This document shows positions 1 to 52,837 of a stretch of 64,000 bases of DNA, in pieces. Numbering within the stretch: the first letter of the stretch is position 1; each line of letters begins with the position of its first letter. Made by a program: the position numbers and the translations under genes. This stretch comes from Tetracentron sinense (taxonomy: Eukaryota; Streptophyta; Magnoliopsida; Trochodendrales; Trochodendraceae). The DNA is taken from positions 22,415,760-22,479,759 of the forward strand of contig CM026557.1 of the NCBI GenBank assembly GCA_015143295.1, written 5' to 3'. The notes beneath the pieces are model-generated. The model saw nothing but the letters and a program-made list of their open reading frames with translations. It did not search any database and was not told the origin of the DNA.

Positions 1-1233
1 AAAAACTCTCATTTGAGATTTCCAATAAGCATAATTACTCTCATCAAACAAGGGAGGACGAGCGATGGAACTACCCTATTTAATTGAAGACATACTTAAG
101 GATATATGAACAAGATCACACTAAAGTAGTTAACTTTATTAGTGAACCCGCTCTGATACCAATTGAAATGACCCCTTTTATGTATCAATAAGACCAAGGG
201 GGGGGGGGGGGGTGAATAGGTTTTCTAAGGCTTGTCTACCAATTTTAATTTTATTAATTAAAGTTATGGAAAAGGTAAACAAAGAATCGTGGCACACAAA
301 CCACAACACCAAGATTTTTACGTGGAAAACCCTCTCAGAAAAAACCACGGGACCTCATCCAGATGAAAGAAATTTAACGAAGAGCAAAAACAAAAGATAC
401 TTACAGACTCGAACTGTACCCAACCAAACTCGACACAACGATCATCGGTAACCTGTCCTCAATGCCTAAATAAGCAATCACGCGCTCGCAAGCCAACATA
501 ATCAACTAGCAACTGATTGTGATTCTCTCAGAACTCCGCAACAACAATCTCTTGATCGATCTCTGCCTAGCCGACTCCAGATTTCTCCGACCACAATAAC
601 CACGATCCGCTACGGGGACCGATCTCCTTATTCGAAGGCTTTGACACGTGCCAACCAAGTTTATACTAACGTAGGAGTTTGAGGGCTTTAATTTAGTTTA
701 AAGAAGGACATAGAGTGATCTCAAGAACAATGAGAATCAAACAACGCAAGTCAAAAGATATTTAAATGGAAACTTGTACTCTAGTCTAGAACATGAGAGA
801 GAGCTCAAAGGGATACATCATCCACAATGTGGAAACCCTAGAATAATTTTAGGAGCTTCTTTTCTCAGTCTCAAAAGCCCTAAATCATAATAGGGGACAA
901 TAATATATAGGCAAACCAAAAAAGGCAAAAGAAAACCCTCTAAAAACTGTTTTCCCACAAGGTGGTTCGAACGCCCAAAGGGGCAGTTTGAACCACCCCA
1001 TAACCCGAGTTACTAGAATTTTTCCCTATACATTTTTGGCTCCGTGGTTCGAACGCCCATACCATGGTTCAAACCACCAGCATGAAATTTGCCCAATAAC
1101 TTATTTTTAACTTCCTTGGTTTGTTTCTAATCACCTAGGGTTCATTGGACATTGTCTAAGTCAATTCCTCTTAGGGTAGATGTCATATAAGTCACTTACC
1201 ACTCCTAGGCACAATTGCGGCACATGAACAACA
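1..1233 (-). mobile_element. Ty1/Copia retrotransposon, 5' end (gag start, PBS, LTR)
   Basis: Fossil Copia element reading leftward off the window edge. Seen: on the minus strand from 93 to 1 a gag start with the Copia N-terminal signature (RPPLFD followed by NYAYWK). Behind it at 150-161 is the complement of a primer-binding site for initiator Met tRNA (TGGTATCAGAGC on the minus strand). The LTR runs about 164-1233 on the plus strand as TG...CA and includes a C-run (minus strand) followed by a conserved-looking LTR end. The LTR end at 1233 was placed from the TG/CA rule only, since the partner LTR is outside the window. The gag start looks broken. Family: Copia, lineage not resolved. A TATA-like stretch (minus strand) lies near 900-909. 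Confidence 0.72.
164..1233 (-). repeat. Copia LTR
   Basis: About 1.07 kb long terminal repeat of the left-edge Copia element. Two hairpin-forming words lie at 961-997 and 1044-1078. Each has a GGTTCGAAC half and a GTTTGAACC or GGTTCAAACC half. They sit 50-180 bp upstream (in LTR orientation) of a TATA-like stretch at 900-909. The outer boundary is inferred, not confirmed by a second copy. Confidence 0.6.
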
Positions 1234-2640
1234 ATTTTTTCTTCGTCAATTTTAGTGCTTAAAGCTTCTTGGACTAAGACACCCTTTAACCATGGTTTTT
1301 CTTACGGAATTAGCCAATCCAAAACTGGACTTTACAAGAAGACTGGATTCCAATCTGAGAAGGAAAACTACCCGATCGACTGGGCACAACCAAGGGAAGA
1401 AACCATCTCTCCATCCTATGACAATGAAAGTAGTAGAATAGGAAGGACTTCAACAACAAGGGAACGAAGAGATGAGTCAAAAGGTTCGAGCACTTAGAAG
1501 AATTTCTGAAGCCCCCTCCTCGCCTTTTGTAGACATTTGAATAGTGGCAATAGACCTAAGGCCTCCTCAATCAAACCATATGTCCCATCTATTGGGGACA
1601 TGATCGTCATATGGCAGGAATTGAAGTGCCAAATCTCGCATTGTTTCCCAGCAATCATGAAGCTTGTGATAGTGCATGGAATACAAAGTCCTATACATAC
1701 GAACGAACGCATTTATTCCTCAAGCGTTGCCAGCTGGAAATCGCATGAGAAATTCTCTAGCTTCTCAGAGCCTCAAGCAAACCTTAGGCCCTGAGAAGAG
1801 GGGCTTTTGTAAGGGGAGAAATCGATAATTATACACAATGATAGCTGGAAGCACCAACAACGCAACAGATCAAGAACACCCCGACCTGATAGTCAAATTT
1901 GGCCTGAATGCCACACGTCCGATCCGAGGTGAAGCTCTGGAGAACTTAGGCAAAATCCTCTTAATCTCCGAGCCACCATGCGAAAGACCCAGTCAAATCG
2001 AATCTCAAAGATCTCGCATAAAATCACGATACTCTCCTGTTGAACAAGGGATTATTTACTCTACAATCTTGACTGTGTAGGCGAACTGGTAAGGTAAGAT
2101 TCTTGTATGATTGGAGGATTCAAATATGAAGATTCCTATTCCCTTGAGGAGTTCAAAAGGAAAGAAAACTAGCTAACCCTAAGGGCCTCACTACAAATAT
2201 AGACGATAAAAACAGAGAAGAGGATCCTTGGTTGATTGATTCTCCCCGAACACAACCCCACTCGGAACCCTAATTCTCTTATGCAATTTTAATCTCATTA
2301 TTCTACTTTCTAACCCCCTTCATCCAAAAACCTAGCACTGACTTAATTTTCAGAGCATCCTTGCAATTCGGAGGACTGTCACACCCCGAAAAGAAACAGT
2401 TGTAGCCAAACAAGAGTAGACCAGTTATCCCAAAGGTATCATATTAGTTTCCCCCACAAATAGAACAAGTAGAATTTTGAGCTCTTCAAAATTCAATTAA
2501 GTGGTTTTCAATTCTATATAATTTAGTTCTTTAATTCAATTCCAATTCCACATATCTAAACGCACTAAATTCTCACTAAAGCTATAACCCTTTAGTAAAC
2601 TGTTTTACTGGTCTTAGCTATGTTTATACGTTGCATAAAG
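1234..2640. other. Unassigned repeat-like sequence, possibly an old Ty3 LTR fragment
   Basis: No gene recognised. Short open frames (for example 1537-1794 and 1838-2080, plus strand) show no family motif. The stretch 2190-2390 has a TATA-like CTACAAATATAG followed by a C-rich leader and a CTGACTTAA word, as seen in R/U5 of some Tat-group LTRs. A plus-strand LTR fragment is therefore possible but unproven. Confidence 0.25.
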
Positions 2641-2689
2641 AAAGGTATTTTAGTCATTTTAAATTATATCTACTAGTTGGCACGTGCAA

Positions 2690-2875: not shown

Positions 2876-2894
2876 GTGTGATCCGATCTCTGTT

Positions 2895-5529: not shown

Positions 5530-5710
5530 TTTAAGCATGTAAATAAATAAATTGTAAATACTTATTTTTTTAAGAACATGAAAAATATTTTTCTATAAGC
5601 GGTTGGCGAATCCAAAAGAAAAATTCACTGAACCCGACCTATTTGGTACGATTATGGGGTTTGCTAGTTTCACGAACTATATTGCAAACCAATTCCCGAT
5701 TTGGTATTAC

Positions 5711-6190
5711 TAGGGCTGTAAACGGAGCGGATATTAGTATATACGAATTTGTATCCAATTATATATCCGGATATCTGAATCCGAATAAATATCCGGCGGA
5801 TGGTGAAATATGATATCCGTATCCGACTCCGATTAAAATATCCGGATTTTGATAATATCCGAATTTTCCGATTAATTTTTTTAAAATTTTAAAAATATAA
5901 ATTAATATTTAAAAAATGTAAAAATATATAAATTTTTATTTAAAAAACATATTTTAAATGTTATATTAATTTTATAAATTCAAAATATATTATATATATA
6001 TATATTATATAATCGGACGAATATTTATCGGATCATATATAACAGTATCCGAATTTGTATCCAATTATAGATGGATAGTATTTTACTATCTGAATCCTCT
6101 CTGCCGGATACATATCCGGATAATTATCCGACTAAATGGATTCAGATACAAATCAGATACGGATAATATCCGCATCCGTTTACAGTCTTA
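5711..6190. mobile_element. hAT-type MITE with 8-bp target-site duplication
   Basis: 480-bp AT-rich element with terminal inverted repeats. The left end is TAGGGCTGTAAACGGAGCGG. The right end, read in complement, is TAAGACTGTAAACGGATGCGG. It is flanked by GGTATTAC (5703-5710) and GGTTTTAC (6191-6198), an 8-bp duplication with one mismatch, the length made by hAT transposases. The interior repeats the words ATATCCGGATAT and ATCCG near both ends. No coding capacity. Confidence 0.85.
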
Positions 6191-8310: not shown

Positions 8311-11247
8311 TGTGAGCACGGGATTTCACTCCCTAGGAAAGTCTCACGAGATTGTTTAAGAGTCGCCACTTATTCGTTCAGAAATGATAAGTTTCCGGAA
8401 AAGTTGGATAAAGACTTAGTTTACGATCAAAGATCGAGGTAAGAGGTTTGGTTGAGTTCGGGGAAGGGGTTAGGCACCCCGACACTTCCACACATGGTGA
8501 TTCCCTACTTGCTAGGTTTAAGCCAAAATTAGTCTCAATGTTAATCAAATGCCTAAGTTTTTAAGTTAATATTAACCGGAAAAAAGTAAAAGCTAACTAG
8601 GGTCGAACCCGTGTTGGGTTGCCTACGTACTCACATTGGGTGAGATCAGACCGAGCGTAGTTCTAGTACTTGAGCCCGTGCTAAGGCAATGGGATGTGTG
8701 TGTGTGCACCAAAAGGTAGCAAATAGGCCTAATCCGGTAAATTAGGATTTTGCTTGACCGAGATTGGTAAATGTGCAAAGTGTGGGCCCAGTAGGCCGAG
8801 GGGTAGTCCGGTAGACTAGGGTTAGGCCCGGTAGGCTAAGGATGAAGCCCGGAGGCTGAGGGAGTGTGTTAACTCGGGGTTAGGGTTGCTAACTGGAGTT
8901 TAAAAGTGAGTTAACCATGGTTAAAAAGTCCACGAATGCAAGTTTTTGGTCTTTTATATTTTTCTGAATTTTTAGGGATTTTTTCAAATTTTTATGGGAT
9001 TAAGTGGTACTTAGCCATGGTTAAAAGTTAACTGTATGCCACTTTAACCATGGTTAAGGGTCCTGATAGTCAAAAGTGGGCCCAAAGGGTATGACAGGAC
9101 CTAGAATGGCCTCCTACCAGGTTTGGGCCCTGCACAAAGCTCAAATTCAAAAAATTACAGAATGGAGGTAATCGGATTACCTTAATTTCTGTAAATTTTT
9201 AACCATAGTTTGTGAGGGTTTAACTAGGGTTAGGGATCAACCCTGGAAAAAATAAACATAAGTATAGAAAGCTTGGAGTGCCAAGAGTCCAGTGAGCTTG
9301 GTTTCAGGCCAAGAGGACCTCGAGTGTGTTCCCAAAGTCAGCAAAACTAAGTCTCAGTATTGGCGGTAATCCCATTACCACCAATATGCAAACTTCATTT
9401 TTTTTGATCTGTCGGTAATGAGATTACCGACAACTTGTACAGTGAGTTAACCAAAGATTTGGGGTCTTGCTAACCATGGTTAGGCTTGGCCCCTGAGTCT
9501 GAAACTTTGCAGAGAGGTAGAGGGATGCAAGGGTTCCCATAGGGGCCCAAAGCCACTATTTGAAAATGTCAAGGTGTCGATAATCAGACTGTCGACAGTC
9601 TGATAACCTAGGTTTAAGGCCACGTGAACCATGGTTAATCTCAAGGTCAGGGGCTAAGATTTTACAGGGTGATAGCCAAGGGTCTGAGGTACCTAACTAT
9701 GACCTTGGAACTAACCAGGGCCTGAGTTAACTACAGTTAAACACGAGTTACAGGGTCAGGTCAAAGAATGTCGGTAGTTATATTACCGGCATTAAGGATT
9801 TTGCCCAGAAATTGAAATTTCCCCTACGGGGGTGCATGAAGTCTAGGGGTTCCTTCATTGTAAGAGGGACCCCCAGACCCTACGGGGAATAACCAAGCCA
9901 AGGTGGGTGGACTGAGACCGTATATACGCCTCATGATACCCCCCACACCAATGAGGAAGGTGGGGAAGTCCCTATCCTTGGCTGGTCTGCTACAAGAACA
10001 TTACGAAATGAAGAATGGGACCCCTGGATCAGGACCAGGGGTCCCTTACAATAGCAAAGTAGAGAGAGCTAGGAGAGGAGTGTCTATTACCCTTGATGGA
10101 CTGCTACCGCGACGATGCAGTGGTGGTGGCAGCTAGAGTAGCCTAAGACAGGCCTGGCAAAGACCCTGGAGGCCTAAAGGGACTGCCTAAGGCTGTTGTA
10201 AAGTTCTAAGGTTAGTGAGGCTAGGTTGGCCAAGGGTGGACAACACCATCTTCCGATTTTTTTTTGGAGGGCAATGGTGGTGAAAGGTGGTGGTGCTACA
10301 CGGTGGAGCAAGGGTGAGGCTCAGGGATGACTTAGGAGGCTGGTGAGCTTTTGGTAAAAGTGCAGGGCCTAGGGGAATGAAAGCTTGAGGTTGAGGATGG
10401 GTTAATGGAGCTCGAACAGGGTTTGGACGTGAAGAAAGGGCCTCCTGAACTGTGGAGGGTGGTGGTGGTTTTATAGAGGAGAAGGGGAGAGGCCAGGGGA
10501 TATTTCAGGCATTCAGAGGATCGAATGGGACCAATAGGGGAGGACCCAAGGTGCCTAGGTGGCTGCAGGTGGAGCCTGATACGCGATCTCAAAAAATCCA
10601 AGAATGGCGGTAATCGAATTACTGCCACCCAAAACAAAGGCAAAATGGGGGTATTCGATTACCGACACTCTGGGGTTTTTGCTATTACGGGCCAGGCTCT
10701 CGCACACTTGGGCCAAAGGGATAAGAATTGCTACTTTGGGGTGTTTCCAGGCCTATTATTCGAATTGGTGGGTTATGGGCCCCACCCTAGTGGACCCCTA
10801 GGGTTGGTGGGCCCAAGTTGGGGCCCACCAAGGCCTAGGCTAGTGGGTTTTTCAAGTTTTTGGATTGTAAACGAGCTTTGAGCCCGTGAGGGCTTGAACC
10901 TAGGTTTGGCTAGGGTTTAGGCTAGGGCTAGGGCATGTCTAGGGTTAGTCCTAGGGTTTAGCTAGGGCTTACCTAGGGTTTAGAGTAATTCTAAGGGTAA
11001 TGGGCCATGAGCCCAAAGGGTTTGGTTCTAAGGTTTTTGGTGGTTCTAGGGCTTGCCTAAGGATTTTTGGGCTCTCCTAGGGCTAGCTTGGGTTAGTCTA
11101 GGGCTTAGGGTAATGAGCTTTTGAGCTCGGATGATTGTCCTAAGGTTTTTAGGGTTTAGGGCCTAACTAGGGTTTGGCTAGGGTGAGTCCTACGATTTCT
11201 ACTGGGGAGAGTTGAGGTTCACAGGGTGTAAAAATTGGGTACTTACA
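8311..11247 (-). repeat. Tat-group LTR, 2.9 kb
   Basis: TGTGAGCACG...GGGTACTTACA on the plus strand, followed at 11248 by the complement of a polypurine tract, which fixes that boundary. The sequence outside the low end is ATAAG (candidate 5-bp target site; the other side is not in the window). The LTR carries imperfect palindromes built on GGTAATC.GATTACC (near 9164, 9363, 9412, 9768, 10607, 10647) and GTTAACCATGGTTAA (near 8913, 9043, 9470). A TATA-like CTATAAAAC (minus) lies at 10468-10480. The part 10880-11190 is rich in CTAGGGTTTA words. Confidence 0.78.
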
Positions 11248-12770: not shown

Positions 12771-14408
12771 ACCTATCGAGAGATGCTGACTGTTGAGGGT
12801 GACTGAGGAGTCCGATGAGCCTGATTGCTGCCAGATTGTGTTGCCAAATGGGTTTTTCAGCTTTTTCTCCATTTTTTATCCTTGGAATGGCCAAGTTATG
12901 GGGTTCGCATAATTTTTGCACGATGAAGCCATTGCTGGTTTTCCTCATCCCTAGGAAGTTGATTGATTTTTATCCCTTTTTTGCCCCTAGTCGTAAGACT
13001 AGGTTTGGATGTTGCGTAATTTTTGTGCAATGAGACCGTTGCTGGTTTTCACTCATGCCCGCGACTTGTTGGGGAAATAAGTATGCTCCCTTAATTGCCT
13101 TAGACTGTGTTCTTGTGGGTATTGTACTCCGCTGAGGATGTAGATATGATATTGTGCTTGCACTCGCAGTTTCTAGGGGATCTAGGAGGACTTAGAGTGG
13201 GATGAAATGTAAGCTGGGGGACCGAAGTTTGGGATACCCTGGAATTGTTTTCTTTGCTGCAATTGACTTGCATGAGATGTTATGCTGGAGATTTGTGCCT
13301 TTGGTGCTACCAGTGGAGAGATTTTTTTTTTGCTCCACTAATCGTCTTCTCTGGTAGAGGTTGACTTTCTGGGGATTTTTTTTTCACACGGGGAGAGTTT
13401 GCATTTGTTTCCCCTGGGAAGAGATATTTTGGGAGAAGTTGATTCTGTTAGGGATAAAGCTCGGAGAGATTGTTTCTACTCGAGGAGTCTCTGACTTGGA
13501 GAATTTTTCGACTTCTATTTTGGGTTTTCCTTTAATGGAATATTTTGTAAACTTAGCGTTGAATCCACCGAGGAAGTTATGAGAGTTTGTCTCTGCTTGG
13601 GGAGTGACTCTGTGGGGGAGAGTTGATGACTCATTTTGGGGAAAGAATGACTCTTCTTGGGGAGAGTTGGGGGATAATTACCCATTTTGATGACCGCACC
13701 CGATTTGTCAGGTTGCCTACGTACCCTTTGTAGGATCAGGTAATGATGTAGTTCAGGCAAATGCCACGGATGGCGAGGGAGGGGGTCCTTGAAAAGTTTG
13801 TTTGAAAGAAAGGCTGTTAGGTTCAAAGCGGCTAAGTAGCAGTTTTCATTGATTGTAAACGGGTTACACTGAAAAGGGATAAAGAGTGTGTCAAAGATGA
13901 CCTCCTGTCATTTCCCGGAGATTCTACGAGTGCAAAGCGCCTATCAGATCTAGACCCTAAGCGTATTATCATTTTACTTTGTCTATGTTGATGGGCTCGG
14001 GGAGGTCTTCGTCATCCATATGTCCGAGCCGAAGGGCGCCGCTTGAGAATTTGTCTCGGACGATGTATGGGCCTTCATAGTTGGGAGTGAACTTGCCTTT
14101 AGAATCAGGGCGGTTTGGCAACACTTTCCGGAGAACCAGGTCACCGACTTCGATGCTGCGAGGCTTGACTGTTTTGTTGAATGCCCTATCCATACGCCTC
14201 TGATAGGCCTGTGAATGATTGATGGTTTTCAGTCGCCGCTCTTCAATCAGATTTGGCTGCTCGAACCGGGTCTGTACCCATTCCACTTCTGAGACTTCCG
14301 CTTCCATTAACACCCAAAGTGATGGACTCTCTACTTCGATGGGGAGGACTGCTTCCATACCATAGGCTAGAAAGAAAGGTGTTGCCACTGTTGAGGTTCT
14401 GATAAACT

Positions 14409-15876
14409 TGTCTTGTTCTTGGTTTATCTTCGTATACTTATACTTAGAAAGCTCGGTTCATGCATACATGCTTATGCATAGTGATTTGTGAACATCATCA
14501 TGTCATGGTGATACTTAAAGAGATAACATGCGGCATTTGAATATTATCATAGGCATGGGAGAACTTGGAGGAACATACATAAGTGTTCTAATAATTGGAC
14601 ACTCAAGAGAGAACCTTAAAAGCGTCTTAGTATTCATGGAAAACTTGAAATATAGGGATCATGACAATTAGGCATCGTACAATTTACATACATTGCATAG
14701 ATCATGGTTACTTAGCCTATTACATTCATATCACACTTCATAGTTCATAAAATTTAGGAAAATCATGGTAAATTCACGAATTGGAAACACATGGAAGCAA
14801 TCTCAATATTTCAAACTTGAAAACCTAAGTCTGGGATCTAAGTTATCACTAAGTTAACTAGAAGGGTTTACTCACAATTTTCATTTACTATCATACTTAA
14901 ATCCTCATTTCAACATTTGTATCAACCAAGCTAGGTAGTGGAAGGTACTTACAATTTCTATTCAAATCATACATCCAATCCTCCTTTAAATCTTTGTATC
15001 ATAGCAAAGCTAGATAGTAGTACTTACCTTAAAAATTGAATCATCGAGACTTTGTGCGTGAAGAACGACTTGGATTGCAAGATCCTTTGCTCCTCCTTTG
15101 ATCTTGAGAAGCCATGGGGATGTGATTTGGGGTTTCACTCTTGATCTTGAGAACACCTCTCAAAAACCTTAACTCTATCTCCCTTTTCTCCCAAAATCTC
15201 ACTTAGGGTCTGTGTTAGTCTAAAACCCCTGAAAATCCCCTCTATTTATAGCCCAAGGGAATAAAACCCTAAAAATCTCGCATTTAGGGTTGATTCGCAA
15301 CTTTACTGTGCATGACCATTTGAACGGTCTCTTTATCATTCGAAGAGTCTTTTGATCATTCAAACGATTATGCCTACTGTTTTTGGTTTCTGAAATTATA
15401 ATTCAATATTTATTAGGATTGTTCGAACCGTTCGAACAGTCTTTTAATCGTTCGAACTGTTATGCCTACTGTTTTTGATTTCCGAAATTCTAATTCAATA
15501 TTTATTGGGATCGTTCGAACGGTCATGAACCGTTCGAACGGTTGAGGCTACTGACTTAGATTATTTGGTTTTCATTCATGATTCACTGGCATCGTTCGAA
15601 CGGTAAGGGAAACCGTTCGAACGGTCACCTTTGTTTTCTTCTAATTTTCTAATTTTCTTTCTCATTGGCATAGGTCTTTTCTTTCTTTAAACCTTTCAAG
15701 AGTCCTTAGGACCATAGAACACACACCATACACATTTACACAATTGAAGCTTCAACCCTCCTTCTCATTAACCAAAGTAATGACAATACACAAGACTTCA
15801 AGCCTTAGAACACTATTCACTGATACTATTCACAGCACTATTCACAGGCTATGAACCAAAGTTTCGGGGTTCTACA
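14409..15876 (-). repeat. Tekay-like Ty3 LTR
   Basis: About 1.47 kb, TGTCTTGTTC...CGGGGTTCTACA on the plus strand. The GGTTCTACA end and the run of CACTATTCAC words before it match the LTR at 50277-52837, which is tied to a Tekay-type integrase. A TATA box reads GGGCTATAAATAGAGG on the minus strand (15239-15253). Upstream of it (15320-15630) are repeated palindromes of the form CCGTTCGAACGG and a 92-bp tandem duplication (TGCCTACTG words at 15371 and 15463). No matching target-site duplication is visible, and it abuts the Tat fragment. Solo LTR or partial element. Confidence 0.65.
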
Positions 15877-20209: not shown

Positions 20210-20530
20210 CAATGATTAAAAATACGGATTCAGGAGATATATCGATCCCAACCAAAACTTATCCGTATCGGTTTCGGACGATACATATAAAAAATTTATA
20301 AAAAAAATAAATGAGTTATAGGAACCAAATTTACCAAATATTCAGTCATGAGAAGCGACTCAAGGATAAAGTAACAAACACAATAACAATTCTACAATGA
20401 ATTAAAACATGCATCCCTAATAAACGATTTGCATCGCCCGTTTCATATCGGTATAAATATCGTACAGGGGGCTACCAATACCTATACGTATCGCCCGTTT
20501 TGTATCGGTTTCGGCAATTTTTATTTCCAT
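20210..20530. mobile_element. MULE-like MITE with 9-bp target-site duplication
   Basis: 321 bp flanked by a perfect 9-bp repeat, GCTTAAATC (20201-20209 and 20531-20539), the length typical of Mutator-like elements. The ends are CAATGATTAAAAATACGG and, in complement, ATGGAAATAAAAATTGCCG. The interior is rich in CCGTATCGG-type words. Confidence 0.72.
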
Positions 20531-20842
20531 GCTTAAATCTCGTGAGGCTTATGCCTCAAAGTGTAAGATTCAAATGAGGCGAATGCCCAATGCCTTGTGG
20601 ATCACTTTATGGCTGAGGCATATGCCTCACGCATTAACCTATCATTGGGTCTAGTTATATGACTCAATTCCTTAGAATTTTTTTTCCTTTTTTCTTCAAA
20701 ACTTCTTTGCAGCTTTGTTTCTTGGAATCCAAAATCCAATACAATGACTGAACATCATCTATTTTTCAGTAAGTAAATAACAAGAATGTAAATTTAGATT
20801 GCAACTTTTGCTTTTTTTTCTTAGACTTTCTTTTGTTTTTAT

Positions 20843-21862
20843 CACGATTTAAAATATCGATACGTATCGACTGATACGGGCCGATACGTATCCTATTTGG
20901 AGCTACCCGATACACTGGTACCCTGGAAAAAAAAAAACTTCACTGTATCGGGCCTGTATCGGCCCGATACCTCGATACGAGAATTTTTCAGTTGGTTTTT
21001 TTTCTCCTTCCATTTACACTACAATCCACAATACAGACCTGATACACACAACTAATTTACATAATATATTATTTAAGTAAATGATTTTAACTTGATTTTA
21101 CTTTCATTTACTTTAGATATTAATATGTAAATAAGGTTTATCCCCCTAATTATGATGCCCCAACCCAACCCTACTTATCAGGAGTCACTGGTTATGATGC
21201 CCCAACCCAACCCTACTTATCAGGAGCCACTGGTTATGATGCTCAGTCCCAGTGTTCGACTAATAGTTATGGAAAGATCACGACTCAGTAGCAAGCATAT
21301 GTACAAATGTTACTTGGACATGTACCGCATGATGATGACTTGGACACAGTGGTGTCATCATATCTGGACCACTTATAATATATCACTCTACTTAATTCCT
21401 GATCCCACAATGATAGAGTATGAGCCGACACGAAGCTTATGTGGTATTGAACTTCTGTCATGTATGTAATTTGATTTGTGAATACAAGGGTCTATGTATT
21501 TTCATATTTTTGATTAATGAATGCAAGTAAGCTTCTATCACTTGGTTAAGTAACTATGGTTTGTATTTTCATACATATTTATCAACGTGCACACCTTTTT
21601 TAACTTATAAAAATTAACTTATAACTTTGTTAATTCTCATATGTATGAATATAAATATAGTTGGAGGCCTTCATTTAGTTTGTTTTTAACTTATATTTAC
21701 ATTAAAAGAGGTTTTATGCAAGGTATCTAAGTTTTTCCTTGCGTATCCAAGCTTTTTTTAGCATATCCTGAATTTTTCCGCCGTATCCAACCGATACGAT
21801 ACTGATACGTATCCTATTTTAGACTTACCGATACGGCTACCGATACCGATATTTTGAACCAT
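20843..21862. mobile_element. MULE-like element with CGATACG repeats
   Basis: 1020 bp. The left end is CACGATTTAAAATATCGATA. The right end in complement is ATGGTTCAAAATATCGGTAT. Flanks are TGTTTTTAT (20834-20842) and GGTTTTTAT (21863-21871), a 9-bp duplication with one mismatch. Sub-terminal arrays of CGATACGTATC and GGTATCGG occur on both sides. The middle keeps a coding-like remnant (reading GYDAPTQPYLSGATGYDA on the plus strand) with a 42-bp tandem duplication. Confidence 0.68.
21149..21240. repeat. 42-bp tandem duplication
   Basis: TTATGATGCCCCAACCCAAC with CCTACTTATCAGGAG.CACTGG is present twice in tandem, and a third partial unit begins with TTATGATGC. It lies inside the MULE-like element, and in one frame encodes a repeated YDAPTQPYLSG peptide. 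Confidence 0.9.
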
Positions 21863-25583: not shown

Positions 25584-26694
25584 TGTTGATGATACCAATT
25601 TAATGGCCTATGTAGCGCATGACATGAACAAAACTGAGACACCACGTGACACTGCATGCCACATCCTTTACACATGGCAAATGCCTTATCTCCAAGGCCC
25701 TCCAGGCATTATCTCAAAGTCTCCAAGCATGTAGTGTTCGCCCTATCTCTAGGCCTCCGGGAGCATGGCAAATGCCTTATCTCCAAGGGACTTTGGGCAC
25801 TGTGAATTCGCTTTATCTCCAAGTCTCCAAGCGTGTGGCATTTTCCCTATCTCAAAGCCTTAAGGCACATGGCTAACGCCTTATCTCCAAGTCTCGGAGG
25901 GCATATCGAACATCTTATTCCAAGTCTCCAAGCATTTGGAGCAGACCGCCTCTGGTTACTTCTACTAAGTCTAAGATATTTCTTTGAGTAATCTAGGATG
26001 GCGCATTGCCTACACTGTTAGACTCTTGAGACAAGGACGGGGAAATAATAGGGTTTGACGGTTTGGGGAGAAATGCTAGTTCTAGCACAGTCATATCTTC
26101 CCACAAGGCGTCTTGTGGTACGTTTCTAAGGACACCAAAAGCAAGTACTCGAGTGATAGTGACATAGTGTAGTACCTCACACTGTAGGACCTTGACTTGG
26201 AAATGAAATCACCAGTATCAGGTGCATTAAATGAAATCATGACCTCAAGTGGACGAGGCAGGGGTTGTTAGGTGTCAGAGGGGTTTGTTGCCCACCTACC
26301 CTACTGATTGTGTACTTCATATCAAGGCAGTTGATAGCCATTGAAGGAAGTTGATAATACATGGGTTGGCAACAAGCCCCCATGATTTCGCCTTTTGGTT
26401 CCATAAATAGAGGATCTCCCCTCTTTAATGAAGCAAAACTTTCCCCAAAAAAGACCCCGTCACTCTGTCGGATTAACTGCTTGCCTATCTCCTTTAAGGA
26501 TTCATGTGGTTCGCTCTTCTTTCCCTTCCTAACCAGCCTTTATTATCAGTTTCATACGGCCAGGACATCTAGTTTAGACTGCTATGAGATTGGATCACCC
26601 ATTGCTCTCATTTACTCAGCTCTATTGGACGGATTTCTCAGAGGGATCCTTATTGGCACCCCACATCAGCTTCTCCACCTTTGGCCCCCTAACA
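25584..26694 (+). repeat. 5' LTR of the 25.6-32.0 kb Ty3 element
   Basis: 1111 bp. It contains a minisatellite at 25660-25950 (units TATCTCCAAG(T/G)C(T/C)CC.AGC), a TATA-like CATAAATAGAGG near 26401, and the shared 3' portion CGGATTAACTGC...CTAACA. The partner is 29494-30712 plus 31785-32042. Confidence 0.75.
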
Positions 26695-29493: not shown

Positions 29494-30712
29494 TGTTGAT
29501 GGCGCAAATTCAATGGTCCACGTAGCTCATGATGTGGACAGAACTAAGACGATACATGGCATTGTATATTTGTATGTCATGACCTGCACACATGGTGCAT
29601 GCCTCATCTCCAAAGGCCTCCGAGAACAATGCATTTGCTTTATCTCCAAGTCTCTGAGAGTGCAGCATTCACCCTATCTCCAAGCCACCAGGCACATGGC
29701 GAATGCCTTGTCTCCAAGTCCTCGAAGCACATAGTGAATGCTAATCTCCAGGCACGGTGCATTCACATCTTTTTACCAAGTCTTTGAGCATACGGCGTTC
29801 GCCTATCTCCAAGCCTCTAGACGCATAGTGAACACCTTATCTCCAAGTCTCGGAGCATAAAACTATGCCTTATTTCCAAAGGTGCCTCCGGCACAGTGCA
29901 TTTATCTCCAAGTCTCCAAGCATGCAGCGTTCACGCTATCTCCAAGCATCTGGGAACATAGCGAACGCCTTATCCAAGTTTCGGAGCACATAGAAATTGC
30001 CAAATCTGCAAAAGCATCTGGACATGACAAACACCTTATCTCCAAGTCTTGAAGCACGCAGCAAATGCCTTATTTCCAAGGGCCACCGGGCACAATGCAT
30101 TCTCCTTATCTCCAAGTCTCGGAGCGCATAGCGAATGCCTTATTTCTAAGCCTCTGAGGACCTTAGCACAGACCGCCTTATCTCCATTGTCCTTCGAGCT
30201 CCGATTACTTCTGCTAAGTCTATGACACTTCTTTGAGTAGTCTAGGAGGGAGGGCGCATGGCCCACCCTGTTAGACTCTTGAGAGGAGAAGGGGGAAATA
30301 ATATGGGTCTCTAGTTCAGCAATTTGGGAAGAAATGTTAGCTTTAGAACAGCCATATCTTCCCTCGAGGCATCTTGTGGTACGTTTCTAAGGACACCAAA
30401 AGCAAGTACTTGAGTGGTAGTGTAGTAGCTAACCCATTATAGGTCAATGATTCAGAGATAAGATTACCAGTATCATGTGCATTTAATGAAAGAATGACCA
30501 CGGTAGATGGGACAAGGGTTCTTAGGTGTCAGAGGGGTTTGTTTCTCACCTACCCTGCTGATTGTGTACTTCACATCAGGGCTATTGATAGCAGTTAAAG
30601 GAAGTTGATAGTAATGGGCTGGCAACAAGCTCCTTTGACCTCCCCTTTTGGTTCCATAAATAAAGGATCTTCCCTCTTTAAGGAGATGAATAATTTTTAG
30701 CAAAAAAGACCT
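29494..30712 (+). repeat. 3' LTR of the Ty3 element, first part
   Basis: Starts TGTTGATGGCGC and aligns with the 5' LTR from its first base. Its internal minisatellite (29590-30190) is about twice as long as the one in the 5' LTR. Continues at 31785-32042 beyond an inserted element. Confidence 0.75.
29590..30190. repeat. LTR minisatellite, expanded copy
   Basis: Roughly 60-bp composite units with alternating words: GCCTTATCTCCAAG, TCTC.GAGC, CATAGCGAA(T/C)GCC, GGCACA.TGCATTC. About ten units, against about five in the 5' LTR at 25660-25950. Confidence 0.8.
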
Positions 30713-31784
30713 CGTTATCAAGGATTTAAATAAAGGTTTTGGCTTGTGTAATGGGCCTGACCGAACCTTTATGTAATGACGTAACGTAACGTAACGGTTT
30801 CGACCATTATAGCTAAAACCCATTTCCCCCCACCATTTTGTAGATACAAAAAATTAAAAAAAATATATAATTGCATGGTCATTCTTTCAAGAAAAAAGCA
30901 TGCTTGCAAACAAAAAGGGGAGGGAGTGAGGGACTTCTTTTGACCTTTGTCGGCTGGCTTGCTTGACCGAGTTAAGGTCAAGCAATTGAAGACCGTTATG
31001 GGATATAAGCAATAAGCAGTTGCTTTCGGTTCGTTTTGAGTTGAGTTCCTTTCTACAAGGACACCCACGCAGCAAGTATGGGAGTACCTTCTATTTGATC
31101 GATTAGGAACCCAAATAAAGGGCCTTTAGGCACTCGACTGCCGCAGTTATACAATACTTGCTGCTACTAAGCCAAGGAGAGGGTTTTAATAAAGAAATGC
31201 ATATTATGCATGCAAATGCTAACGTATCATAATTAACACATAATGAGATAAAAATGCAAATGCATAACCAAAATTATCATAGATTTATTGATTTCATTTA
31301 AAATCCAGGCATCTATATTCTAAACTTGTCAATATGCATTTTGTTCTTCTCGCGCCCTTTCCCCTTGAATGCTTTTGTTTGAGCTACTGATACTGGAACC
31401 GGTCTCTCTCTGGATCTGAATCAATTGCCTTAGGTAGGAGATGCAGGACCTGTCTTAACCGCAAGTGCATTCGTTATTCGATTCCACCCTCACACTATAT
31501 TCTTTCCAAAAGTGAGTTGTGAAGATTCAAAACGTAAATCTTATTTATGATCTAAAAAAATAAGACAAGGGTGATTATATTTGGCTTGAGAGGGAGAAGG
31601 TGAATTTTAAAAGAAGTGAGATAGAATGAGTTTCTAAAACTCGTGGTAAGTAATATAGCGTCAACTGTTTTGTAATGATCATTAAGTAACGTAACATAGG
31701 TCATATCAGTTCGAGTAATACCAAAACCTTTACTTAACGGTCGTTTCATAATGGTTTTGACGAGAGTTACTACCATGCCCATTA
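30713..31784. mobile_element. Insertion (probable DNA element) in the 3' LTR
   Basis: About 1.07 kb absent from the 5' LTR at the corresponding place. TAAAGGTTTTGG near the left end (30732-30744) and CCAAAACCTTTACT near the right end (31720-31735) are in inverted orientation. GTAACGTAACGTAACGG (30779-30796) and its diverged counterpart AAGTAACGTAACAT (31684-31697) add a second inverted pair. There is no coding capacity that I recognise and the exact ends and target site are unclear. Confidence 0.5.
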
Positions 31785-32042
31785 ATTTGTCGGATTAACT
31801 CCTCGCATATCCACTTCAAGGATTCCTATAGTGCGCTTCTCTTTCCCTTCCTAACCAACCTTTATTATCCCCTTCCTCTAATACACAATTTATTCAGTTC
31901 AATACGGCCAAGACATCTGGTTTAGGATAAATTGAGATTGGATTGGCCATTACTCTCATTTACTCAGCTCTGTTGGCCGGATTTCTCAGAGGGATCCCTA
32001 TTGGTACTCCACGTCAGCTTCTCCACCTTCAGCCCCCCAACA
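31785..32042 (+). repeat. 3' LTR of the Ty3 element, last part
   Basis: Aligns with 26460-26694 of the 5' LTR (CGGATTAACT..., ACGGCCA.GACATCT, TTTCTCAGAGGGATCC, CACGTCAGCTTCTCCACC) and ends AACA. It has an extra short segment (CCTCTAATACACAATTTATT) relative to the 5' copy. Confidence 0.78.
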
Positions 32043-35223: not shown

Positions 35224-37333
35224 ATGCCAAGAGCTAGGGATCCATTTTGGGAACATGTGACTGATGAAGGGGGGGCAAAGATGAGATGTAATTTTTGTCA
35301 TAAAGTATTTGTTGGTACTATTACTCAAATGAAAAACCATTTTGCAAAAATACCACAAAGAGATGTACAGCCTTGCACTATAGTGCCTGATTTAGTTTAT
35401 GAAATGGCATTAGACGCTATACAATAGTTGGAATCGCGTAAAAGGGCAAAGACAGATTTTCCATGACCATCTCAGTCTGGTAATGTTGGTGCAAGTGGAA
35501 GTTCTATGGGTTCTGTCACTAACACAGCTTGTGGTAGTTTAGGAGGAGAGGTATTTCCATGTCTAGACAACCAAAAATTGAGCAACTAATGAAAAAGAAA
35601 GAGAAAGAGCTTGCAGAACTTTTCTTAGTGAAAGCCTTAGTTGCAAATAACCTCCCATTTCACTTGTTGAGGTCCCAACAATTTAAGGATGCCATTGTAG
35701 TGAATTCAAATCATGGCCTAGGTTATATTCCCCCAAGAAATGAAATGGCTAGGATGAAGGTATTAGCAAGTTTAAAGGACGAAGCAGATGAATATGTTAA
35801 AAAAATCAAACAATCATGGGCTAGTTCAGGGTGCACAATCATGTCTAATTCATGGATTAATGCAAAGAAGCAGCCACACGTGAATTTGTTAGTGGCTTGT
35901 CCGAATGGCACAATCTTTTTGAAAAGTGAATACACAGTGGGGAAGAAGAATGATGCAACATTTCAGTGGGGAAGAAGAAGGATGCAACATTTCTTGCAAA
36001 CTTCATTGCTTCTGGGATTGAAGAAATTGAACCAGCAAATGTTGTCCAGTTTATTTCAGACAATGCTTCAAATTATAGTGCAACAGGGATTATTATTGAA
36101 GATAGATATCCAAATATTATCAAGACGTCTTGTGCAATACATTGTTTGGATTTGATTTTCGAGGAAATTGATGAGCTTCCTCAAGTGAAGCCAACAAACA
36201 CGAAATCTGATAAAGTTTTTCTACAAATTCCAACATGAGTTGGATTTAATGAGATTACACACGAAGAAAAGAGAATTAAAAAGGCCGGGTGCATCAAGAT
36301 TTGCAACACAATTTCTATGTTTGCAGTCTATTCCCAGAGAAAACAAGCTTTGAGATTTATGATTGCTTCAACTGAATGGAGAGTTCTCCACAGTGGAAAA
36401 CAAATTTCATACAGGGGAATATGTTTTGGGAGAATGGCAAAGTAATAATTCATACAGTTGAGCCTCTAGTTAGAGTTTTAAGAATGGTAGATGGTGATGG
36501 GTCTACTATGGAATATATATATGAAGGAATGGATAGAGCAAAAGAAGCAATTAAAAGACTGTATGAAGACAATGCTGAGAAATATATGCCTTTTTGGAAA
36601 ATCATAGATGAAAGATGGAACAAAACATTGCATAGTCCCCTGCATGCAATTGCTGCCTATCTTAATCCCTAGTTGTTTTATAATAAATTGGTGAAGATGG
36701 ATAGGGAAGTAAAGATGGGTGTAGAGAAGGTGATTGCGAAAATGATTGGTTTGGAAGAAGGGAAAAGGTTTGACAGGGAGCTGAGACTTTACCACCAACG
36801 AGATGATTCCATCTTTGACAAATGGCCAATTGATTCCCTTTAGGATGAAACATCCAAGTAAGTTTATTATATTTATTTACTTTTTTAACTTTGATTATAT
36901 TTTAAAATTTATAGTCAATAATTTTTAATTGTGAATTTGTAAATTGTAATTAGAAATTTGGTGGGATGTATGGAAGCGATGTTCCAATCCTTCCAAAGGT
37001 GGCAATCAAATTGCATAGCCAACCTTGTAGTGCCTCAGCTAGTGAGCGAAACTGGAGTGCTTTTGAGGCTGCACACGTGAAGAAGAGGAACATATTAGAG
37101 CCAAAAAATTACATGATTTGGTATATGTTCGTGTGAATTTGCATTTGATGAATACAAGTGCAATGAAAGAAAAGAACGATTCGGAACCAATTAATATAGA
37201 GAACATTTTGGCATTCCCAGATATACCTAAAGGTGAAGAAAATCATGACCCCCGAAGATGATGCTACCTCTTCAAGTGAACCTTCAGAAAATGCGGAGGA
37301 TGAGCTAGATGATGAGCTTCTTTTGGATGAATA
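35224..37333 (+). pseudogene. hAT transposase (BED finger, DUF659, C-terminal dimerisation)
   Basis: Seen in order: BED-type zinc finger (MPRARDPFWEHV, then CNFC, then QMKNHF and a Cys at RDVQPC; 35224-35400). DUF659 follows (YIPPRNEMARMKVL, SWINAKKQPHVNLLV; 35559-35960). Next is the RNase-H-like core with ISDNASNY (Asp at 36059) and the hAT motif CAIHCLDL (near 36130). Then EKYMPFWKIIDERWNK (36580-36630), and the C-terminal dimerisation patch SERNWSAFE (37041-37065) ending in an acidic tail. An intron with GTAAGT..TTAG ends fits 36858-36953. Breaks: in-frame TAG at 35425 and TGA at 35464, frame change before DUF659, a 29-bp tandem duplication at 35935-35992 that shifts the frame, and a TAG after AAYLNP near 36670. 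These proteins cut and paste their own element in the nucleus. This copy cannot make one. Confidence 0.88.
35935..35992. repeat. 29-bp tandem duplication inside the hAT gene
   Basis: CAGTGGGGAAGAAGAA.GATG and CAACATTT are repeated back to back with a single difference. Since 29 is not a multiple of three, it moves the reading frame between DUF659 and the RNase-H-like core. Confidence 0.92.
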
Positions 37334-42261: not shown

Positions 42262-43098
42262 CTATTGCTGCTGCTGATTCTGCTGCTGTTGCTGAGGGTT
42301 TGGTGGTGGAGGCATACCCGGACGAGGTGGACCAAAAACTGGAATGCCACCACCAGGTGGAGGCGGCATCCCAGGTCGGGGAGGCGGTGGACCTCCCATG
42401 CCCGGTCGGGGAGGAGGTGGTGGTCCTCTCATCATCTGTGGCGGCGGTCCCATGGGCCTCTGCCCAAACTGAGGGAATTGTCCAGGTGGTGCCCCACCTG
42501 GACGTGCACCATACTGACCCGGCACAGGCGGCATTTGTCCCCGCGACATTGGCGGTGGGAGCTGCCCAGGAAACCCAGGTAATTGCCCAGGTGGGCGAAT
42601 CATCGGAGCAGGCGGGTAATTCATTGGTGGTGCAGAAAGCTGTGGTACCGGCGGGCGAGATATCTGGGGCTGCATCATTCCAGGGGCAGGTCCACCGACG
42701 CCGCGAACCGGTCCAGAAAGACCAGGTTGGGCTTGAACAAGCGGAGCAGTGGGGATTCCACGGCCGGCAGAACGGCCAATGCCGGGACCGGCCATTGCAG
42801 CAGCACCAACAGCTTTGGCCCGGGATTCCTCGGGAGGAGGAGGGCCTTCGACGGTCATTGAGACGACCTCTTCGCCACGGAGGAGAACGAGACCTAGGGT
42901 TCTTCGTTCTTCGCGTTCTTCGTTCTTCTTGCCTTTGGCGGGTGGGAGCTTGCGAAACTCCTCGCAGTCGCCGAGAACAAGATTCATGTGTCGATCGAAG
43001 GCCATGAATTTTCCAATGAGCTGCCGACCGTCCTGGATGGTGACGCGCATCCTGTAGTTGATGTACTGAAGCATCTTTGAACTCTTCGACATCGACAT
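42262..43098 (-). CDS. SmB: Small nuclear ribonucleoprotein-associated protein B (SmB/B')
   Basis: SmB is one of seven Sm proteins forming the ring on U1, U2, U4 and U5 snRNAs in the nuclear spliceosome. The 278-residue product is complete. The Sm fold covers about residues 5-86. Sm1 is in [20 protein letters not shown] and [17 protein letters not shown]. Sm2 is in [17 protein letters not shown]. After PPPPEE comes a long Pro/Gly/Met-rich tail with repeated PPPPRPGM and GPP blocks, the type bound by GYF and WW proteins, ending in poly-Gln. Length fits plant SmB proteins. The coding part has no intron. The ATG at 43098 gives [10 protein letters not shown]; the Met two codons on is an alternative. 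The 5' leader contains GAAGAAG repeats, and three AAACCCTA telo boxes lie further upstream, as in many plant housekeeping genes. No sign of decay. Confidence 0.95.
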
Positions 43099-43149
43099 TT
43101 TCGCTGGATTTTGTTGATCTGCTCCTTCTTCTTCTTCTTCTTCTCTTTC

Positions 43150-43270
43150 GGGAAAACTAGGGTTTCTGTACTACGAACGAAGGTGCTTCCGGAGGAGGAG
43201 AGAATCTAGGGTTTTTGAGATGAACGTTTCAGTAATTTTCCATTTTCAGGGTTTTTAGGGTTTTGGGAGA
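43150..43270 (-). promoter_or_regulatory. Telo-box cluster upstream of SmB
   Basis: Three exact AAACCCTA words (minus strand) at 43158-43165, 43207-43214 and 43256-43263, spaced 49 bp. Telo boxes are common near the start of plant genes for ribosome and RNP components and support growth-linked expression. They could lie in the promoter or 5' leader, since the transcription start is not known. Confidence 0.65.
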
Positions 43271-49417: not shown

Positions 49418-50276
49418 ATTGTTAAAACCCTTGTGAAAGTAACTCAATTTTCCTATCAACTACAATGACAAAGTTTAACCTGTCAAACTTTATAAGCCTT
49501 AGCAACAAAAAAAAAATGGACCTTATAGAAATTGCCAAGCAAATACAAGAGAGTCGCGGGGTGGTCCAATTAGTTGGGCCACCATGACTGAAAATTGCAG
49601 TTCCAAAAGGTGAACTAAAAATTCTCGTTACCCTTGGTGCCATATGCGACCCACTATATTCCCAGTCCATCCCCAAAACATGCACTTGCTTGGTTTATAG
49701 ACTATAGTTTGGGGGTGCAAATAGACTGGGCTTATGCTTGCATGTTGTGATTTTTTAATAAGCCCAACCTAAGTTCAGGTTGTTTACTAGAGATTTTTGT
49801 GGCCTAAATTTGACTCTCTAATTATAATTAGGGGTGTCAATGGGCCAGACTGGCCTGGTGGCCCAATCCGATCGAGATCTAGCCCAAATTAAGCTCTATC
49901 GTTAAGCCCATGAGACTATGACCTAACTTTCAATTATGAGCCCATATTTTTTGGGCCGGATAGGGCTTCTGGGCTTAGTATATTATAGAAGCCCGCCCAG
50001 ATCGAAGTACTATGTAATATAGTATATTATATAATAATATATAGTTATTATTTAATTGACTATGTTGACTTACTTAAATACCCCTTCAATCCAAACGTTC
50101 AATAGTTTGATTGGAGGGCATTTAAATAAAGAGTTGAGATCATATGATTGAACTCGGCCAACAAGTCAACATGTGTCCCTTTGATCCCTATTAATTGTGG
50201 TTAAGATTTACTAATTTTACTGGAAGATATCATTTACCTAACTTAGTATAGTACATGATTAGTGGTTAATATTAGG
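49418..50276. other. Repeat-bearing spacer
   Basis: 49540-49690 (GTCGCGGGGTGGTCC, GGGCCACCATGACTG) is GC-richer and SINE-like in composition, but has no clear B box. 49822-49990 is a TAGGGGTGTCAATGGGCC hAT MITE whose right end I cannot find. 50125-50235 shares words with the dispersed fold-back family. Confidence 0.4.
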
Positions 50277-52837
50277 TGTCGCGACCCAAAATACCCCATA
50301 GAAGATAGGAGACCGTTTGACACGTGACCGAAATCATATCATACCATCCTGTGCAATACACAAGACATACAAATGACGGAAGCATAAAATTTCTAAAACA
50401 TAACCTGAATATACTCCAAGTATGAACCAACAGAGTTTTACAAAAACATACTAAATGTAAAGTGGACATTCCCCACTTCAAAATACATAAATCACTCCCT
50501 CACACGCTCACCAGCAATCCAAATAGGGCCACCTATCTAATGCTCTATCCTCGAGCGGGTGATCCATGATAGGCTTCGGCTCGTAGGACTCCTCCTCGAC
50601 CCAAGGCTCAGGAGCATGCACCTCATCGAGACTCGCCAATGATAACAAATTGGCTAAGTTTGGAATACTCAGCGTATACAAATCACTAGATCATATGTCA
50701 TAATTTCACATGCTTCACATAGCCAATTCATAGAATACACAATGGTGTAAACGAGCCGAGCTGGGCACTGCTCGGGCTCGGCTCGATAATTTTTTCTTAA
50801 AAATTATATTGATAAGCACTAAATTCAAAAAAAAAAAATTCAGGGCTTTTTTTTTTGGGGATGTCATGTTACTCACGTGAAAGTTTGAGTGAAAACTTAA
50901 AAGGAAATAATATGTTAATGTATACTAAATATATTTTACCCAAAAAAAGGTATACTAAATATATAATATAAATTTAACTTTTAAATGGTATTATTATAAA
51001 ATTAATCGAGTCGAGCCGAGCTAAGCCACCTATTGTTCAGGCTCGACTCGTTTATTTTTCGAGCTCACTTTTAAGGCTTGGCTCAGCTTGGCTCAACGAG
51101 CCCAAAGTAAAAGCTCAAGCTCGGTTTATTTTGAGTCGAGCCGAGCTGGCTTGGCTCATTGACACCACTGATACACATGCACTAAAACACATAAGGAAAC
51201 CTCTTTGCATATACACATGTGCAATACTGTAGAACACATACACTTATCTTTCAAAATCATATTCTTCTTTTATTTTCTTTTATCTCTTTTACTTTGCACA
51301 TGGAACATTTACTTGCTTTACACATGACTTTTATGGGAGAGTACACATGACTTGACTAAAGCTCTACCTAGAGTGGTAGAAGTCCATTAACATTCACATA
51401 CACATAGAGCATGCCTAATGCTCTACCTAGAGTGATAGAAGTCCATTAGCATCTTCATCCACCTCCCCGTGGATATATTTGCAAATATTTTACCCGGAAC
51501 AAATGTCAAATGTTCTAACTAGAGTGGTAGAAGTTCATTTGCACCCTTCTAACACACATAGCTTCATTTGGGACCAGATGACTAATGCTCTACGTAGGTT
51601 GGTAGAAGTCCACTAGCATCCTCCCGATATATCTTACTTTGTTCATCATCTTTTACCTTACTTATCCGATACACACATACACATAAAAACCCGATCATGC
51701 ACTACAAGTGTCATATACAATTGTGAGTGAATAAGGTAAACACACAACATATGGCATATGCTCTTCAATTTCATTCAAACCTATCACATGACATATACAT
51801 AAACTAATACTCATGGTTTCATCAAAAACACTCTTTCATCATTTGTTTTAAACATAACATCAATATAAGGAAGACTAAGAGGATTTCCTACTTTCTTTTC
51901 ATTTCAAAGCATATGGTTCGTCATAGTTTTTCAATAGAAAATATAACGAATCACATAGTAAAGTGTATCTACAATTTTTCATCACAGCACATGATTTTCA
52001 TCTTCAATTTCATCCATAACATGTTTTTCATCTCTAGGTTTAAGAATAGGATCATGAAAAGAGTATATAGTAGAGAGTATCTACCTTTGAAGGATAGTTT
52101 CTCTACGATCGAGCGCTTTAGAAAACACTGAAGTAGCAAGAAGGACTCCTTGATCCAAAACACCAACTCAAGAACAACTCACAAAAACCCTCTCTTTTCT
52201 CTCTCTCTTTCTTTCTTCATTTTCTCTTAAAATTTTACTAAGAGCTTGTGTGAAGCTCACACCCCACGAAATTGGGTTTATATAGCCCCTTTGGGGTTTG
52301 GTGAAACACCCAAAAGACCCCCAAAATATCCTATAAAACAATAGTAGGTCGGCCAGACAAAATGACTTGAAAAACCCACAGTCAGTCGACCAGCTAGGAG
52401 GGGCGGTCAACCGGCCATGTGTAAACCCCCTAAAATCCCCTTTTTGGAGACAATCGGTCAACTGGCTATGAGGGATGGTCGACCGACCTTCTCAAAAACC
52501 CTATTGTAGCCCTGTTTTTTGGCCTTTATCATACAGGCGGTCGACCGGCTGGCTAGGAGGCGGTCGACCGGTCTCTGTGTATTTTGCCAGTTTCTCCCGT
52601 TTTTCCCATTTTTTTCGGTTTTCACTCTTGTTCCTTCAAGCTTAGAGTGATTTTACTCTTTTACCCTGACTTTTAGCACACACATAATACGCACACCAAA
52701 TATAGAACCTTCCCATATCATTTAACCATGCCAATCACATTCAAGGCATTTAGGCCTTTAAAACACTATTTACAGACACTATTCACACACTATTCGTAGT
52801 ACTATCCGGCTATGAAAATGAGACTCGGGGTTCTACA
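50277..52837 (-). repeat. Tekay-group LTR, 2.56 kb
   Basis: TGTCGCGACCCAAAATACCC...CGGGGTTCTACA on the plus strand, bounded at 52838 by the complement of the purine tract. A TATA box reads CTATATAAACCC on the minus strand (52278-52285). Upstream of it lie repeated GGTCGACCGG palindromes (52385-52570). A tandem series of AGAGTGGTAGAAGTCCATTAGCA-like units (GCTCTACCTAGAGTG, GTAGAAGTCCA) occupies 51355-51620. Interrupted by a hAT MITE at 50742-51169. Confidence 0.8.
50742..51169. mobile_element. hAT-type MITE inside the Tekay LTR
   Basis: 428 bp. The left end is ATGGTGTAAACGAGCCGAGC and the right end in complement is AGTGGTGTCAATGAGCCAAG. Flanks AATACACA (50734-50741) and GATACACA (51170-51177) form an 8-bp duplication with one mismatch. 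The sub-termini repeat GGCTCGGCTCG and GAGCCGAGC. Confidence 0.87.

Follow-up and report, generated by a model that had tools for sequence, protein, structure and literature searches.

Do unrelated families of long terminal repeat (LTR) retrotransposons in one plant genome come independently to carry arrays of short palindromes in front of their promoters? The question is raised by a 64,000-nt stretch of Tetracentron sinense contig CM026557.1 (the window), whose content suggests plant nuclear DNA crowded with old transposable elements. A first-pass annotation had described four LTRs (F1 to F4 below) as unrelated families, each with a palindromic word of its own repeated just upstream of a TATA box, and had proposed convergent evolution of a promoter array for which it knew no named class of element. 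We conclude that the feature is of a known kind and had been correctly seen, but that it was over-generalised to four unrelated families. By the position rule of that annotation, three of five LTR families fit (F1, F3 and F4), one fits partly (F2) and one, an LTR pair added here (F5), does not; the arrays of F1, F3 and F4 are the feature already named the Sirevirus repeated motif (RM) by Bousios et al. (2010; PMC2829016; this and the other papers are cited from the available portions of their texts). The five families found are a non-exhaustive annotation of the window, and F1 to F4 are represented throughout by one copy each, no second LTR of theirs being present among self-matches of more than 80 bp within the window.

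Palindrome arrays upstream of three TATA boxes

The slices of F1 to F4 all begin with TG and end with CA on the minus strand, and their TATA boxes lie where they had been placed (F1 909; F2 10475 or 8958; F3 15250; F4 52284). F1 (164..1233, TGTTGTTC...TTTCA) is the LTR of a Ty1/copia element that extends past the left edge of the window; upstream of its TATA box (TATATAT, 903..909, like the other boxes read in the LTR slice) lie four sites within two mismatches of GGTTCGAACC, none of them perfect (964..1075, starting at 964, 985, 1046 and 1066), the first at LTR position 159 and the last centred 60 bp before the box. F3 (14409..15876, TGTAGAACCCCG...AAGACA; TATA box GCTATAAATAGAGG, 15244..15250) holds the largest array, in which the site search returned ten sites within three mismatches of CGTTCGAACG, nine of them within two and four perfect (15317..15623), running from LTR position 254 to a last centre 72 bp before TATA; a further site with three mismatches at LTR position 65 was excluded from the array. 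In F4 (50277..52837, TGTAGAACCCCG...GTCGCGACA; TATA box GGGGCTATATAAACC, 52278..52284) the same search gave six sites within two mismatches of CGGTCGACCG, two of them perfect (52383..52570), from LTR position 268 to a last centre 104 bp before TATA, and one extra site with two mismatches at 52106, downstream of the box. All these features read on the minus strand. The sites upstream of TATA thus number 4/4 in F1, 10/10 in F3 (plus the site at position 65) and 6/7 in F4, and they span about 60–370 bp before the box (roughly 50–380 bp had been given for all four LTRs); in F2 four of the six copies lie downstream of the box named.

Enrichment was assessed with 300 dinucleotide shuffles per region, each region covering 319–401 bp upstream of TATA, and with two scores, the number of copies of the best near-palindromic 10-mer and the count of palindromes of at least 8 bp. 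F3 (15252–15652; eight copies, reached by 0/300 shuffles; seven palindromes vs. a mean of 1.45, 0/300) and F4 (52290–52690; seven copies, 0/300; four palindromes vs. 1.13, 9/300) stand well above the shuffles, and F1 modestly so (915–1233; four copies, 4/300; three palindromes vs. 0.85, 12/300). The F2 region (10480–10880) reached six copies (0/300) and four palindromes vs. 1.28 (10/300), its best word being GTGGGCCCAA and not the one noted before. The comparison with real sequence used 134 blocks, each of 400 bp, from beyond F1 to F4: at least four copies occurred in 15 and at least six in three, one of these with eight; at least three palindromes were found in 12 blocks, at least four in five and seven in none. 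Sliding windows of 320 bp (797 in all) scored highest at nine (CTAGGGCTAG, around 10801–11200, within F2) and eight (CAAACTTTTG, at 56401), ahead of F4 with seven and F3 with six. An open scan for repeated near-palindromes returned 61 pairs in 20 clusters; 20 simulated sequences, in which tandem repeats are lost, gave 0–6 pairs. The F3 array was its largest cluster (17 pairs), the F4 array gave two pairs, F2 gave two clusters (six and three pairs) downstream of 10475, and the F1 array was not picked up. The arrays are thus real and uncommon, F1 least clearly, and repeated palindromes also occur outside LTR promoters; F3 and F4 stand out, F1 modestly.

The three arrays also share a spacing. With the sites taken upstream of TATA within two, three and two mismatches for F1, F3 and F4, the centre-to-centre distances in LTR orientation are 20, 61 and 21 bp in F1; 21, 62, 19, 63, 20, 9, 63, 20 and 20 bp in F3; and 23, 62, 21, 51 and 21 bp in F4, so that doublets about 20 bp apart, with about 62 bp between them, appear in F1 as in F3 and F4. 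At two mismatches F3 loses one site and its last two 20-bp steps merge into 40. The distances fall near multiples of 10.25–10.5 bp as closely as in 0/5000 random placements, a figure that treats duplicated units as independent. When each family contributes a single doublet distance and a single gap, the phase was equalled by 18/20000 placements with 62 as the F4 gap, and by 7/20000 when both F4 gaps and the 9-bp step of F3 were kept; by family, the figures are 341/20000 for F1 alone, 442/20000 for F4 alone and 15/20000 for F1 and F4 together. The helical phasing is suggestive.

The words themselves are less private to their families than had been supposed. The octamer GTTCGAAC occurs nine times in the window vs. 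0.47 expected, twice in F1, seven times in F3 and nowhere outside these arrays; since F1 and F3 share it, not every family has its own word. GGTCGACC is present in three copies vs. 0.33 expected, all in F4. A looser count, at two mismatches, gives the words of F1, F3 and F4 28, 24 and 18 sites in the window, of which four, nine and seven lie within their own LTRs. The F3 word CGTTCGAACG differs from the F4 word CGGTCGACCG by one symmetric pair of changes, and all three words have TCGA at their centre. This tetramer occurs 16 times in 684 bp of arrays (two F2 sites included) vs. 2.2 per kb outside, an enrichment that is partly by construction because the arrays were picked for words that hold it. 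Observed/expected CpG in the arrays of F1 to F4 is 0.84, 1.22, 1.94 and 0.80 vs. 0.55 in the window. At the 20 sites of F1, F3 and F4 there are 22 departures from the words, 16 of them CpG transitions, as expected for methylated, silenced copies.

A Sirevirus motif in gypsy-like LTRs

F1 carries Sirevirus hallmarks, and its junction and C-rich run were compared with those given in PMC2829016. At the 5' LTR/primer-binding site (PBS) junction, positions 150..165 on the minus strand read CAATTGGTATCAGAGC, that is CA/ATTGG/TATCAGAGC, which equals the 16-mer given for the Sirevirus 5' LTR/PBS junction. Read in the sense direction, 15 consecutive C (198..212, minus strand) are separated by 33 bases from the last LTR base; the published Sirevirus integrase signal, C-rich in its middle, is about 19 bp long and lies 21 bp from the LTR end on average, so the match is approximate. 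Because of the PBS junction and the C-rich run, F1 fits a Sirevirus.

F4 appears to be of another superfamily. A polypurine stretch, AAGAGGGGAATGA (52838..52850, minus strand, by eye), adjoins its LTR start, and F4 is therefore a 3' LTR, of an apparent Ty3/gypsy element that seems to hold a later insertion. The frame next to it (53128–53433, minus strand) encodes the C-terminal part of an integrase with the Pfam domain SH3_Tf2-1 (E 1.3e-15), which we take to be a mark of Ty3/gypsy elements, hence the assignment. The first-pass annotation had labelled F4 Tekay and F3 Tekay-like; of the chromodomain expected at a Tekay integrase end, a likeness is seen by eye, while Pfam gave no chromodomain match for 52962–53264, beside F4, at E up to 10. 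The LTRs of F3 and F4 are related on alignment, matching at 76% over the first 67 bp and at 70% over the 63 bp just after TATA, and the other five pairs among F1 to F4 gave no match. Since F3 and F4 align, the families are not unrelated, and what is left of the supposed convergence across four families is a single Sirevirus LTR plus the related, gypsy-like pair F3 and F4. F3 looks like Ty3/gypsy by its likeness to F4 only. No reverse transcriptase assignable to the F3 or F4 elements was present among the 20 open reading frames (ORFs) searched.

The Sirevirus RM is a palindromic word present in several copies, with 12 different words in 13 elements; within the LTR most copies occupy its upper half and precede a conserved TATA box, forming CpG islands, and copies mostly begin 200–400 bp into the LTR (PMC2829016). 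F4 agrees with the RM in position and in its word, which has the CGG-CCG core and is identical to the RM of the Vitis Sirevirus (CGGTCGACCG); its arms, CGGTC/GACCG, are found in 3/13 published RMs, Vitis included, and the RMs of Osr10 and Osr8 consist of the same arms with one base between. The F1 array, with its four sites, agrees in position (in the U3 region of the LTR, just upstream of TATA), but its word GGTTCGAACC is without the core, as is that of F3; the RM of Tnd-1 likewise has none. The arrays of F3 and F4 start within the published range (254 and 268) and that of F1 slightly early (159). F1 holds four RM-like sites in one LTR vs. at least eight published per element, the linker and the other LTR lying outside the window.

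The carrier is where F3 and F4 differ from the published cases. The RM is called Sirevirus-specific relative to classic Ty1/copia elements (PMC2829016) and its carriers are Sireviruses, whereas F3 and F4 look like Ty3/gypsy and the integrase end adjoining F4 matches SH3_Tf2-1. Among the open-licence literature matches listed, judged by title and opening of the abstract, none was recognised as describing such arrays in gypsy LTRs. In their available portions, PMC6911290 concerns palindromes at insertion targets and not in LTR promoters, PMC11963269 matches only within its reference list, and PMC10794571 has no bearing on the question. The available portion of PMC2829016 does not describe a doublet spacing of RMs. 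Apparently new, then, are the RM feature in gypsy-like LTRs and the common spacing of about 20 bp within and about 62 bp between doublets. What goes beyond the available portion of PMC2829016 is the presence, seen in one copy per family, of a Sirevirus's own word and a similar spacing in LTRs that resemble Ty3/gypsy.

How the arrays may act

Sites, symmetry, position, shared words, distances and CpG-type decay are observed. We propose, as about an even call, that F1, F3 and F4 carry U3 promoter arrays of the Sirevirus RM kind, with dyad sites to which host proteins would bind as dimers and so activate transcription from the LTR. This reading is favoured because of the dyad symmetry, a word shared across superfamilies, the like place before TATA and the near-helical spacing. 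Each palindrome would be the binding site of a host DNA-binding protein acting as a dimer. The two sites of a doublet are spaced by about two helical turns, and doublets repeat at intervals of about 82 bp; with these two distances most sites would lie on one face of the helix, where they could be bound together; joint binding may then activate transcription from a TATA box 60–104 bp past the last site, the phasing being functional. The array would grow through duplication of a doublet-bearing unit, the word may shift between families while keeping its symmetry (as from CGTTCGAACG to CGGTCGACCG in the related F3 and F4), silenced copies would lose sites via CpG transitions, and the two superfamilies may use the same or related factors. 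The promoter array for dimeric regulators suggested by the first-pass annotation thus stays the best reading for F1, F3 and F4, favoured by shared words and spacing, and it covers F2 only in part and does not cover F5 in the 400 bp before its TATA-like box. A stronger version, possible yet doubtful in our view, is that a single promoter module is common to the copia Sireviruses and gypsy elements of one plant: TCGA-centred doublets on a helical lattice (about 20 and 62 bp), recognised by one family of dimeric host factors and either gained independently or passed between superfamilies.

The palindromes could instead act as RNA: U3 transcripts would form hairpins that serve as a source of small RNAs and of silencing, an idea put forward for Sireviruses of maize. 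A 2016 study, as cited in PMC5311732 and PMC10760457, links palindrome-rich LTR regions of maize Sireviruses to hotspots of small interfering RNA (siRNA); the cis-region is palindrome-rich as here, but that work is based on small-RNA mapping and ours on predicted folding, which is mixed. The doublets of F1 form, by eye, inverted repeats with 11-bp arms. The best 110-nt sense-strand window of F4 reaches −40.8 kcal/mol (rank 46/3195), past the −40 used in PMC10760457, and that of F1 −39.5 (rank 60/3195), just short of a limit that 56/3195 windows attain; the best fold of F2 (−51.8, rank 2/3195) lies at 10741, away from its word GGTAATNNNATTACC. A hairpin or siRNA role is accordingly possible for F1 and F4 on predicted folding. 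It is not our first choice because the fold predicted for F3, the strongest array, is weak (sense-strand best −31.2, rank 272/3195); hairpins also do not require helical phasing, and maize Ty3 elements have no obvious peak of such structures in the available portion of PMC10760457. We judge this account rather doubtful overall, and likewise unlikely a neutral origin, by which one palindrome per family was copied along with its unit by slippage or unequal exchange, leaving number and spacing without function. Signs of copying speak for it: F3 holds a 92-bp tandem repeat (15339–15520, 87% matches), the doublets of F1 and the units of F4 look duplicated by eye, the F5 LTRs carry direct repeats without a clear palindrome, and clusters of repeated palindromes lie outside LTR promoters as well. 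Neutral copying nevertheless leaves unexplained the octamer GTTCGAAC common to F1 and F3, the identity of the F4 word with a Sirevirus RM, the symmetric difference between the F3 and F4 words, and the like distances of about 20 and 62 bp in F1 and in F3 and F4. Very unlikely, finally, is a silencing or chromatin feature in which TCGA-centred sites serve DNA methylation or its readers and not activation. The density of TCGA, the raised CpG ratio of the arrays and the 16/22 CpG transitions would suit it, but the first of these follows in part from how the arrays were chosen, any silenced element should show CpG decay, and neither 10-bp symmetry nor word sharing nor phasing is called for.

Several points weigh against the activating array that we prefer. 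F2 and F5 depart from the pattern, and F1's score of four is matched by 15/134 real blocks outside the four LTRs. The regions were chosen by hand, as were the mismatch limits (2 in F1, 3 in F3 and 2 in F4). Distances within a family are non-independent because of tandem duplication; when the two F4 gaps (62 and 51) are averaged to 56.5, the phase is not significant (1994/20000), and a degenerate F4 site near 52344, counted under a slightly different word in the shuffle comparison and absent from the spacing list, would be out of phase. The literature on words and motifs, among the matches listed, offered no usable binding factor.

Known binding words were compared as candidates. A well-studied analogue is the heat-response elements in LTRs of ONSEN and other COPIA elements, which several families have acquired, ONSEN by duplicating a proto-site (PMC5059998). 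These too are factor-binding words in LTRs, but the arrays of F1, F3 and F4 contain no TTCnnGAA and no GAAnnTTC, and heat-shock elements were rejected. Two further candidates did not fit all three arrays: CHR-type TTYGAA (three in F1, nine in F3, none in F4) and MSA-type AACGG/CCGTT (none in F1, eight in F3, none in F4). W-box, DRE and AuxRE words occurred in F4 only, twice each.

If the RM type of array is no peculiarity of Sireviruses and serves gypsy elements too, down to the same word, the host factor that reads it could be sought by comparing words across superfamilies, and the switch of these very abundant elements would become testable. Should helical phasing hold up in further copies, it would tell DNA binding apart from the hairpin or siRNA role on which the literature lays stress.

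Departing families and other features of the window

F2 (8311..11247, minus strand, TGTAAGTACCC...CTCACA), for which Tat is the label of the first-pass annotation, has TATA candidates at 10475 and 8958. Its spaced palindrome GGTAATNNNATTACC (9167..10663) has 12 sites in the window at up to two mismatches, of which six, including all three exact ones, lie in F2. Relative to the TATA box at 10475, the copies at 10609 and 10649 are upstream and those at 9167, 9365, 9414 and 9773 downstream; the latter four would be upstream only if 8958 were the true TATA box. For the position and spacing of GGTAATNNNATTACC, F2 was rejected as having the same architecture as F1, F3 and F4. The ORF at 13972–14457 matched only SH3_Tf2-1 in Pfam, weakly (E 0.12).

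Other palindromes are present in the same LTR. A second repeated palindrome, TTAACCATGGTTAA (8911–9638), has five copies within two mismatches (8911, 9011, 9044, 9470 and 9625), all downstream of the TATA box at 10475, and related words occur at 54458–55921, 60873 and 1286. Positions 9583–9604 form a perfect 22-bp palindrome, ATCAGACTGTCGACAGTCTGAT, and the LTR start (10801–11200) holds CTAGGGCTAG-type words, up to nine per 320 bp and unrelated to GGTAATNNNATTACC.

F5 is an old element on the plus strand whose LTRs were found as a self-match pair, the 5' LTR at 25584..26694 with a TATA-like box at about 26403 and the 3' LTR at 29494..32042 with a further insertion at about 30715–31788; identity is 72% and 76% in the two best pieces, and a polypurine-tract-like AAGGGGCTAA precedes the second LTR. 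The 400 bp before the TATA-like box hold no palindrome array (one and two palindromes, array scores of 1 and 2), and on this region F5 was rejected as a further case. Its U3 does carry direct repeats of about 34 bp, without a clear palindrome, in an array that measures about 280 bp in one of the LTRs and about 600 bp in its partner (limits set by hand). Lying further upstream, this array equals F1 with scores of 4, 4 and 3, and holds 8/30 of the window's sites for a guessed word, GGCG(AA/TT)CGCC.

Protein and DNA-pattern scans of viral contigs, and a scan of genome contigs with one DNA pattern, gave no relatives elsewhere. Two further regions hold clusters of the open scan: ATATCCGGATAT-type palindromes at 5600–6180 (scan cluster at 5.7–6.1 kb) look like the ends of DNA transposons, and the CGATACGTATCG and GAGGCATATGCCTC words at 20220–20980 (scan cluster at 20.5–20.9 kb) are DNA-transposon-like. 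The Pfam search covered 20/88 stop-to-stop frames of at least 85 aa, five of which were searched again. An open frame at 42262–43098 (minus strand) with an LSM domain (E 8.4e-18, frame 42265–43170) and a proline-rich tail looks like a gene for an SmB-type spliceosomal protein. A frame with a DUF659 domain at 35538–36152 (plus strand, E 1e-17) resembles a portion of a hAT-type transposase, and a fragment of a Ty3/gypsy-type RNase H (RT_RNaseH_2, E 2.2e-21) lies at 59560–60093 on the minus strand.

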